A stretch of 64,000 bases of DNA from NCBI GenBank assembly GCA_017656235.1, contig JACDOF010000009.1, positions 62,001 through 126,000 of the forward strand. The letters run 5' to 3'. Below, one piece after another: positions 16,159-61,981 of this stretch. This DNA comes from Brevibacillus sp. GTDB lineage: Bacteria > Bacillota > Bacilli > Brevibacillales > Brevibacillaceae. Position numbers and translations under genes: made by a program. Within the stretch, counting starts at the first letter, position 1, and each line of letters starts with the position of its first letter. A model generated the notes under the pieces. It was not told the origin of the DNA. It saw only the letters and a program-made list of their open reading frames with translations, and ran no database searches.

Positions 16159-17355
16159 ATGAGACTCAACCTGTTGACCCAAATCCTGGCCGCCTTTGTG
16201 ATCGCCGTCATCGCAGGGGTGGTCTTCGGACCGGCGATCGAAGCGGTAAAACCGCTGGGGGACTTGTTCCTGCGCCTGATCAAGTTTATCATTGTCCCAC
16301 TGGTACTCGCTTCCCTGGTTGTCGGGGTTGTTGGTACCGGGGATCTGTCAAAACTGGGCCGGATAGGGGGCAAAACAATTGTCTATTACCTGTTCACGAC
16401 GGCTGTGGCCGTGACAATGGGGCTGATTGCAGGCAATCTGTTCGCACCCGGGGTTGGCGTCAACCTGCCAGCAGTCAATGCCGATGGGGAACCGTCTGCG
16501 GAAGCAGGGGGGCTGATCGAGACCCTGCTGGCTGTTGTTCCAACCAATCCGTTTGCCGCACTGGTTGAAGGAAACATGCTGCAGCTCATCTTTTTTGCCA
16601 TTTTTCTTGGTTTGGGCATCACGCTGGTTGGGCAGAAGGCGGTGCCTTTGCGCCGCGTGTTTGACGGACTGGCTGAAGTGATGTACAAGCTGACCGGGAT
16701 CGTGATGCGCTTTGCCCCGGTTGGGGTGTTCGGACTGGTTGCGCCGACCGTGGGTACGCACGGAGCATCCATCCTGCTGCCGCTGGCAAAAGTGATTGTG
16801 GCGGTGGGAGTCGGCTGTCTCCTGCACGCCCTGCTCACTTACTCTCTTTCGGTGAAACTGTTCGCGGGCATGAAGCCGTCCACCTTCTTCAAAGGCATCG
16901 CCCCGGCCAGTCTGGTTGCTTTCAGCACGTGCAGCAGTTCCGGTACGCTGCCGATCACCATCAGGAATACAGAGGAGAATCTGGGGGTATCACAGCGGAC
17001 GGCAAGTTTTGTCCTGCCGCTCGGAGCCACGATCAACATGGACGGGACGGCTCTTTATCAGGGGGTATGTGTGCTGTTTGTCGCCCAGTTCTTTGGGTAT
17101 GATTTGTCGCTGGCCGAACAAATTACGGTCATCCTGACCGCTACGCTTGCTTCCATCGGTACGGCGGGTGTGCCCGGAGCCGGTCTTTTGATGCTGACGA
17201 TGGTGCTGAGTTCCGTCAACCTGCCGCTGGAGGGCATTGCCCTGATCGCCGGCATCGACCGCATTCTTGACATGTTTCGGACCGCGGTCAATGTGACCGG
17301 AGACGCGTCTGCGGCGGTGGTGGTGGCTGCTACGGAAGGGGAACTCCGGCAGTGA
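16159..17355 (+). CDS. gltP: Dicarboxylate/amino-acid:cation symporter (GltP/DctA family)
   Basis: The 398-residue membrane protein belongs to the DAACS (SLC1-like) family, which takes up glutamate, aspartate or C4-dicarboxylates with H+ or Na+. Signature elements are LRLIKFIIVPLVLASLVVGV, the serine-rich hairpin AFSTCSSSGTLPITI (HP1), LPLGATINMDGTALYQ (helix 7) and GTAGVPGAGLLMLTMVL (HP2). NMDGTA and the absence of an extended C-terminus fit the glutamate/aspartate or dicarboxylate branch, which cannot be told apart here. The ATG at 16159 has GGGGGAGGAAGG upstream. Confidence 0.9.
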   Translation: MRLNLLTQILAAFVIAVIAGVVFGPAIEAVKPLGDLFLRLIKFIIVPLVLASLVVGVVGTGDLSKLGRIGGKTIVYYLFTTAVAVTMGLIAGNLFAPGVGVNLPAVNADGEPSAEAGGLIETLLAVVPTNPFAALVEGNMLQLIFFAIFLGLGITLVGQKAVPLRRVFDGLAEVMYKLTGIVMRFAPVGVFGLVAPTVGTHGASILLPLAKVIVAVGVGCLLHALLTYSLSVKLFAGMKPSTFFKGIAPASLVAFSTCSSSGTLPITIRNTEENLGVSQRTASFVLPLGATINMDGTALYQGVCVLFVAQFFGYDLSLAEQITVILTATLASIGTAGVPGAGLLMLTMVLSSVNLPLEGIALIAGIDRILDMFRTAVNVTGDASAAVVVAATEGELRQ

Positions 17356-17364
17356 TCGTTTCGC

Positions 17365-17440
17365 AGCGGGCAGTTGTGCATCTTTGCTGGTCAGGCAACA
17401 GCGCGAGCAGGACGATTGGTCCTTTCGGGACACTTTGTCT
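17365..17440 (+). repeat. Structured intergenic repeat, copy A
   Basis: This segment aligns with 52357-52430 at about 60 of 74 positions with one 2-base gap. It can fold as a closing stem (GTG/CAC plus flanking pairs), a first hairpin (TTGCTG...CAACAG), the conserved core GCGAGCAGGAC, and a second hairpin (GTCC-tttcg-GGAC). It lies between the convergent gltP and rlmD genes. The strand is arbitrary. Confidence 0.7.
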
Positions 17441-17445
17441 TCACG

Positions 17446-17472
17446 CTGAACCCCTGACGAACAAGGGTTTTC
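17446..17472 (+). terminator. Probable terminator of gltP
   Basis: AACCC pairs with GGGTT over an imperfect CTGACGAACAA loop region (17448-17468), followed by TTTTC. It is weaker than the others in this window. Confidence 0.45.
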
Positions 17473-17476
17473 AACT

Positions 17477-28297: not shown

Positions 28298-28312
28298 CTG
28301 GCTGCTCCTTTC

Positions 28313-28431
28313 CAAGCCTACGAGGTTAGCTGAAGGGTTCGGTAGAAAGGTATCCCTAGGCTGTTTGTATGGCAACAGCCATTCACCCCAGACAAATGGG
28401 TCCCCCGGTCCCGATGGCGAGATTCGGCTTT
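28313..28431 (-). promoter_or_regulatory. c-di-AMP (ydaO/yuaA) riboswitch
   Basis: On the minus strand the leader has the ydaO consensus blocks in order: AAGCCGAATCTCGCC, GGGGGACCCA, TGGGGTGAAT, AGGGATACCTTTCTACCGAA, and CCCTTCAGCTAACCTCGTAGGCTT. The 5' AAGCC pairs with the 3' GGCTT to close P1. This class binds cyclic di-AMP and commonly precedes NlpC/P60 hydrolases and K+/osmolyte transport genes, turning expression off at high ligand. It ends 15 bases before the TTG start of the hydrolase gene. Confidence 0.92.
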
Positions 28432-28624
28432 TTTTGCGATTTTACACACTAGTTGTTGTCTATTCGTGAAAGGTGGCTGGTTTCCTGTTTTCGCAGATGC
28501 AGTTCACAAAATTGTCACATTTTTATTCGTAATTTTATGAAACGTTATGTGGTTTTGTGCGTCAAGGGAAAGAAGGAGATGAAACTTGTTCGTCTCGATG
28601 ATGGTGAGAAGATTGATCGGAAAA
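28432..28624. other. Intergenic region without a convincing gene
   Basis: About 190 bases between the riboswitch and the next terminator. They probably hold the promoter of the NlpC/P60 gene on the minus strand, upstream of the riboswitch. A 120-codon plus-strand frame starting at 28453 runs through a terminator and antisense to another gene, and is not accepted. Confidence 0.5.
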
Positions 28625-45378: not shown

Positions 45379-45529
45379 GAGATTTCTTACCATTTATGAA
45401 ATGAATGTTTTTTCTGAAAAAAGCAAGCGGTTTCAATGTGGAGAGCGGCCATATTCCGCACAACGACTTTGCCAACCATCCAAGCGGAGCAAGCCCGAAG
45501 CGGGGAATACGGGAGCAACTTCGTTCGAG

Positions 45530-52255: not shown

Positions 52256-52356
52256 ACTTGCAGCGTAGATCTACCGGGAAGGTTGAGAAGAGGAAAATGG
52301 CCGCCTCCTCTATCCAGACACCCTTTGTCTACCACGGTGCACAGAGGAGCGCCGTC

Positions 52357-52430
52357 AGCGGACAATCGTGCATCCCTGCTGGCCAGGCAGCAGCGAGCAG
52401 GACATTTGGCCCCTTTGGGCCACATTGTCT
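52357..52430 (+). repeat. Structured intergenic repeat, copy B
   Basis: It aligns with 17365-17440. Proposed folding has a closing stem GACAAT-c-GTG (52361-52370) with CAC-ATTGTC (52421-52429), hairpin CTGCTG-gccagg-CAGCAG (52376-52393), core GCGAGCAGGAC, and hairpin TGGCCC-cttt-GGGCCA (52407-52422, sharing its last bases with the closing stem). Relative to copy A, a U-A pair in the second hairpin becomes C-G. It lies between the convergent spo0M and gltB genes. Confidence 0.7.
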
Positions 52431-52455
52431 ATGAGGGCTTTTGGCTGTTTGCATA

Positions 52456-57169: not shown

Positions 57170-57586
57170 CCAAGTAAAAGTATCAATAGAATAACACGAA
57201 TATTTTGGCGAAACAAGATGGGGATGTTTTTTTATACGAATGTAAGCGTTTTTATACTGTAAGATTTATTGACATAGAAAATTTTCGTTCGGACAAATGA
57301 TTTGTATAGGCGAATAATTATTAGTTATTGCTATTTTTTATTCGTTTTTTACTTAATTATATTCCAATTTTTGTATACTTAACCCCGTTAAGTTCAGTGG
57401 CTGAATAGTGGGAATATTTATTTCCCTTATCCTGGTTGCATGAAAAATGAATAAACGGTGAGGGGGATGCCGGACCATCGGAGAAGGCGGGGTGGTCCGG
57501 CGTTGGTTGAAAGCGGCGCTTTGAGCCCTGTAATTGTTCGCTCTTTGTGGTGTTACGTCCTGCTCGCAGCCGGGAGGAATACCGGT
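57170..57586. other. Intergenic region gltB-gsaB
   Basis: About 415 bases. The left, AT-rich part (57190-57400) should carry the gltB promoter, and a TTCTAT-N17-TATAAA pair on the minus strand is a candidate. A 9-bp perfect stem, GCCGGACCA (57469-57477) with TGGTCCGGC (57493-57501), has no T-run. GCGAGCAGGACG (minus strand, about 57549-57560) repeats the core of the structured repeat at 17365. No gene is seen. Confidence 0.5.
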
Positions 57587-61703: not shown

Positions 61704-61725
61704 AAGCGCGTGACAACTTCACATT

Positions 61726-61862
61726 TCCTTCGGGGCAGGGTGAAATTCCCGACCGGCGGTGATCACCACAGGTGTAAGCCCGCGAGCCTCCGTCCGCGTT
61801 CGGCGGAGTGCAGGATCTGGTGCGAATCCAGAGCCGACAGTATAGTCTGGATGGGAGAAGGA
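61726..61862 (+). promoter_or_regulatory. FMN riboswitch (RFN element)
   Basis: The RFN consensus is clear: TTCCTTCGGGGCAGGGTGAA, TTCCCGACCGGCGGTGAT, AGCCCGCGAGC, GCAGGATCTGGTGCGAATCC, AGAGCCGACAGT and the closing GGATGGGAGAAGGA. The CCTTC/GAAGG ends form P1. A transcription terminator follows at 61982, and the riboflavin transporter gene after it, so FMN should switch ribU off at the level of transcription. Confidence 0.95.
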
Positions 61863-61981
61863 TTTGGTCAGTACGCCATGCACGTGCTCGTTTTCGACGT
61901 ACGGTCGTATAGGCAGGGCTGTTTTGCGGGAACAAGCCCTTGCTTTCCTATACGCTTTTATGCCGGATCGGTCCACAAACG

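Follow-up and report, generated by a model that had tools for sequence, protein, structure and literature searches.

Intergenic repeats of a Brevibacillus genome as very probable remnants of miniature elements whose target hairpins are duplicated

The window analyzed here, the whole stretch of 64,000 nucleotides from a Brevibacillus sp. contig, contains two intergenic segments 35 kb apart (copy A and copy B) whose resemblance raises the question of whether they conserve an RNA or are the traces of a mobile element. A preliminary description favored a conserved RNA or single-stranded DNA fold, composed of a closing stem and two hairpins around the core GAGCAGGAC, and offered a miniature element derived from the IS200/IS605 family as an alternative.

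Both segments belong to a dispersed mosaic repeat family

A search within this genome aligned copies A and B at 79% over approximately 75 nt (E 8e-12), and the differences between them in hairpin 2 (GTCC/GGAC in copy A, GCCC/GGGC in copy B) and in the closing stem (two A-U pairs changed to G-U) were as described. Searches of the window's own 3.6-Mb draft genome (G000) with the second segment or a family consensus recovered approximately 40 copies of this end, termed the R end, far beyond chance. Modules L1 and L2 gave 33 and 45 matches, respectively. Each segment is a truncated right-hand end from one member of a dispersed family of mosaic repeats, and the repeat is longer than first stated, what had been delimited being one end of an element of approximately 254 bp or more.

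Two main arrangements of modules were observed. Type A elements consist of an L1 module of approximately 156 bp followed by R (251 to 255 bp in total), and type B elements consist of modules L2 and L3 (approximately 550 to 570 bp). Hybrids and tandem arrays are also present, and all carry the 15-bp terminal repeat CAGAYTGCAGACAAA, which occurs 104 times in G000 at up to 2 mismatches versus 10 times for a reversed control. Head-to-tail arrays of type B elements lie at C10:89454-90543 (L014/L101/L103) and C10:60440-61144 (L119/L120), with boundary sequences that recur between units.

The family has the properties of MITEs. Its dispersed copies have terminal inverted repeats in common, target sites are duplicated, and the elements, at 251 to 613 bp and with no frame open in all copies, lack transposase coding capacity. 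An autonomous relative with the same ends was found in a genome of the same genus (G001) and not in the window's own draft genome.

The remnants in the window are as follows.

17354..17448, + strand: copy A, a type A MITE reduced to its truncated right end, the R module (R-module HMM at 17354-17442, E 3.6e-28; aligned with other genome copies); the left half and left terminal repeat are absent
17434..17448, + strand: right terminal inverted repeat of copy A, TTTGTCTTCACGCTG, read from the sequence
17449..17475, + strand: weak terminator-like hairpin, AACCC...GGGTT and then T-rich, immediately outside the right terminal repeat of copy A, read from the sequence
45454..45522, + strand: third MITE remnant, a type B fragment of module L3 (L3 HMM, E 4.1e-17), absent from the earlier list of features
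52284..52331, + strand: remnant of module L3, the right end of a type B MITE (L3 HMM, E 1.6e-8)
52338..52358, + strand: short linker module M4, which connects L3 with R in several of the genome copies (blastn, 100%)
52356..52431, + strand: copy B, a truncated R module within a type B/R hybrid (R HMM, E 4.3e-19)

A 12-mer of the repeat said to recur on the minus strand near 57.5 kb is indeed present as a string at 57556-57567, but no repeat-profile HMM matched there even at an E value of <10, and this site is not part of the repeat family. The window also contains two riboswitches well over their Rfam gathering scores, a c-di-AMP (ydaO/yuaA) riboswitch at 28300-28439 (- strand) and an FMN riboswitch at 61722-61866 (+ strand).

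Conservation of the core follows from pairing across the whole element

Compensatory change between the two copies, conservation of the core, and the folding of copy B alone, which was better than that of its shuffled versions (z -2.7), all speak for a conserved structured RNA, either a small RNA or a cis element, dispersed in intergenic regions. Copy A folded no better than its shuffles (z -0.75). Across 33 copies, however, the fold advanced on the strength of the compensatory changes failed a covariation test: the closing stem and two hairpins were paired in 76.0% of cells compared to 75.8% after shuffling, with 248 of 500 shuffles as high, and pair counting gave no clear excess of compensatory change. 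In addition, RNAalifold found essentially no consensus fold for the R module alone (-0.19 kcal/mol), and Rfam scans gave no relevant match.

A structure does exist, but at the scale of the entire 254-bp element, which folds back so that the R end pairs with the opposite end. The type A element folds back over almost its entire length (DNA z -6.3), with a foldback consensus of 67 pairs at -86 kcal/mol. The core in the R end pairs with GTCC..GAC in L1, and two such pairs are altered on both sides. Because the core pairs with the L1 half in this foldback, its conservation reflects a long inverted repeat rather than an independent RNA. With core conservation accounted for by the other half of the element, and with copies that travel as mosaic elements bounded by terminal repeats and duplicated targets, we consider a dispersed structured RNA highly improbable.

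MITE insertions lie between duplicated hairpins

Intact copies in G000 are often found between direct repeats of 15 to 27 bp, which usually form a hairpin like that of a rho-independent terminator. For example, AGAATGTTCGTAACCGAACATACT flanks the element at C2:69504-69756 on both sides, and GCCGGAGCAGAYGTGCTGCTCCGGT is the duplication at C4:19699. We scored the alignment of both flanks for 30 G000 elements selected by internal sequence only, with mismatched flank pairs as the null. The 99th percentile of the null was a score of 11, and its maximum of 27 came at least partly from tandem or nested neighbor pairs included in it. Scores were at least 11 in 18 of the 30 elements and at least 12 in 16. 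A recognizable duplication is missing in approximately 40 to 50% of the G000 copies having both ends, which would be expected of old or rearranged copies yet may leave room for other modes of insertion.

When elements from four genomes (G000, G001, G011, and G027) were pooled, a duplication of 15 to 38 bp was found in 36 of 54, although the rate of duplication is readable from G000 only, as elements from the other three genomes were chosen partly by flank similarity. Within this pool, the center of the duplication coincided exactly with that of the palindrome in 22 elements and fell no more than 0.5 nt from it in 27. We also compared edges at predicted empty sites, three of them on plasmids. 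In 51% of these sites, the stem score was 6 or more and the duplication and palindrome ended no more than 3 nt apart on either side, compared to 0.17% of random positions, and duplication length correlated with palindrome length (Spearman rho 0.50, p 0.001). At least four T (or A) residues in six were found at the palindrome edge in 34 of 39 predicted empty sites versus 25% at random; such edges fit terminators, where they are expected. The duplicated sites have no long sequence in common, and many duplications begin with A-R and end with Y-T.

Both window copies are truncated, and neither itself displays a target duplication. From its sequence and position, the hairpin at 17449..17475 is presumed to be the surviving copy of the target hairpin of copy A, the left-hand duplicate having been lost.

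IS1182 elements of a sister species share the MITE ends and duplicate hairpins

Several related genomes are rich in the terminal repeat. In G001, a sister species in the same genus, elements of 1537-1546 bp begin and end with the MITE terminal repeat, and duplicated hairpins (e.g., AGACGCCTTCGTAAGGCGTCT) enclose eight of these 1.5-kb elements. The G001 element encodes a transposase of 481 aa that belongs to the IS1182 family (NF033551, 491.7 bits against a cutoff of 270) and contains the Pfam domains DDE_Tnp_1_6 and DUF772. Targeting of palindromes, a trait reported for some IS1182 members, is seen here as well.

G011 and G027 have MITE families of their own with hairpin duplications (approximately 255 bp and 328 to 343 bp, respectively), and transposase was detected in these two genomes as fragments only. 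The IS1182 fragments of G011 are located at C1:1369148-1369677, in a genome with approximately 39 matches to the terminal repeat and many hairpin duplications that are still near-identical, and the G011 mobilizer may have been lost recently. As for the MITE sequences themselves, G011 and probably G007 contain diverged relatives of the family in G000. A search for the core across 84,980 species gave scattered single matches only, at about the level of chance, and the sequence family therefore seems confined to the species of the window.

The window's own draft genome yielded no IS1182 transposase above the cutoff. Its elements may therefore be orphans, or their mobilizer may have been lost or may be collapsed in or missing from the draft assembly. 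Assembly breaks fall at or near type B elements at the start of contig C2 (L123) and the end of contig C23 (L115), so that the draft may lack longer repeats, for example an intact IS. A PF13751 match at C12:16460 was rejected as the mobilizer, being a distant pseudogene well under the IS1182 cutoff. The decayed DDE transposase at this locus (C12:16460-17338; L129) adjoins a frame that appears to resemble the C-terminal region of a maturase from a group II intron.

Plasmid IS1182 elements provided an empty site. In Sutcliffiella horikoshii, Peribacillus, and Enterococcus faecium, plasmid-borne IS1182 elements lie between perfectly duplicated hairpins of 24 to 30 bp, and the terminal repeats of these three elements are near-identical. 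They represent three of the seven plasmid IS1182 loci inspected; at the other four (Peribacillus pA, Arthrobacter, Exiguobacterium, and E. faecalis pGTC3), there was no clear duplication or the ends were not located within the flank examined. The E. faecium flanks joined with one hairpin make up 526 nt, and other plasmids of Enterococcus contain this sequence without interruption (99.8% over 526/526), indicating that the empty site has a single hairpin and that insertion duplicated it. A search for the empty site of the Sutcliffiella element did not find one.

Because the IS1182 elements of the sister species share both the ends of the MITEs and the duplication of hairpins, with plasmid IS1182 elements behaving likewise, our data point to IS1182-mobilized MITEs with a target stem-loop as the duplication. 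We are thus confident that the window segments are decayed right ends of MITEs that a DDE transposase of the IS1182 family mobilized in trans, with duplication of the target hairpin. For the copies in G000, mobilization in trans by such a transposase is what we infer from the shared ends.

The alternative offered in the preliminary description, a palindrome-bearing miniature element, was correct in kind but assigned to the wrong family. IS200/IS605 elements lack terminal inverted repeats and do not duplicate their targets. In this family, both are present, as 15-bp terminal inverted repeats and duplications of 15 to 38 bp, and the partner transposase is a DDE enzyme of the IS1182 type and not an HUH enzyme. 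The palindromic ends and hairpin-rich sequence would suit an IS200/IS605-derived, REP- or PATE-like element that moves as single-stranded DNA, as do the PATEs of Haloquadratum, which are mobile, palindrome-associated repeats without a transposase; PATEs, in contrast to the elements here, are IS605 derived and have internal palindromes without terminal repeats or target duplications (PMC3119063). We therefore give this origin almost no credence, even less than a structured RNA. Terminal repeats, target duplication, and the transposase also excluded group IIC introns, attC-type targets, HEARO/omega-RNA, PATE, and IS605.

A model for duplication of the target hairpin

In the mechanism that we propose, the IS1182 transposase would join the element ends at sites equidistant from the axis of a palindrome, one on each strand, with the palindrome usually being a hairpin like that of a rho-independent terminator. 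Gap repair would then leave a full hairpin at each side of the insert, and the target-site duplication would be the hairpin itself, its length set by the hairpin and not by a fixed stagger. The upstream gene would retain its terminator, making an insertion nearly harmless, which could plausibly account for the high copy number.

How the target would be recognized is the less certain part of this model. We lean, by a narrow measure, toward a branch of IS1182 that reads DNA shape and attacks an extruded terminator hairpin at both of its feet. The stem-loop would then set the duplication length and a terminator would be left on each side, allowing low-cost multiplication; the transposase would thereby recognize the extruded hairpin or cruciform. 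The duplicated sites are nearly all palindromic, which is as compatible with symmetry of the duplex as with an extruded hairpin, and the shared first and last dinucleotides of the duplications could be a weak sequence preference. These observations would also suit an ordinary IS1182 transposition in which a long staggered cut merely prefers palindromic duplex and neither a cruciform nor other structure is read. That account is possible but unlikely, since duplication length varies and the duplications are symmetric about the palindrome axis without a long sequence common to the sites, and the literature on IS1272 favors structure recognition (PMC5678879, PMC4923244).

Relation to known systems

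Within the IS1182 family, the staphylococcal elements IS1272 and TnSha1 use hairpins as insertion sites, some of them confirmed terminators, and remove all or part of the target hairpin without making a duplication (PMC5678879, PMC4923244). These elements and the ones described here have in common the transposase family and an inverted-repeat target, often a terminator hairpin, without sequence specificity. They differ in outcome: the staphylococcal elements delete the hairpin or take its place, whereas the whole hairpin is duplicated here, and the E. faecium empty site with its one hairpin is inconsistent with replacement of the IS1272 type. A 2017 model included, as a possibility only, an attack at the 5' feet that would duplicate the whole stem-loop (pathway b; PMC5678879), and a 2025 paper describes IS1182-related transposases as acting with or without target duplication or deletion (PMC12056078). 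The natural insertions here are examples of the duplicating outcome drawn as pathway b. Our search, which covered the open-access literature, found no prior report of hairpin duplication. ISfinder may already record long duplications in the IS1182 family.

Structure-directed transposition that deletes the hairpin was reported for one staphylococcal element, with duplication drawn only as a possibility. The duplicating outcome is now seen in the window's genome, in three relatives, and in the plasmid copies of Sutcliffiella, Peribacillus, and Enterococcus. The choice between 5'-foot and 3'-foot attack becomes directly testable, and these findings suggest how such elements pile up beside genes without breaking transcription termination.

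Like other bacterial MITEs, the elements of this family are short, multicopy, and nonautonomous and have terminal inverted repeats and target duplications. They are distinguished by very long palindromic duplications, a foldback of nearly full length in type A, and recombination between modules that gives rise to hybrids. BOX, RUP, and other intergenic repeats of Gram-positive bacteria are likewise dispersed, modular, and hairpin rich, but Rfam searches revealed no sequence relation to them, and the family described here comes with a candidate IS1182 mobilizer and a target rule.
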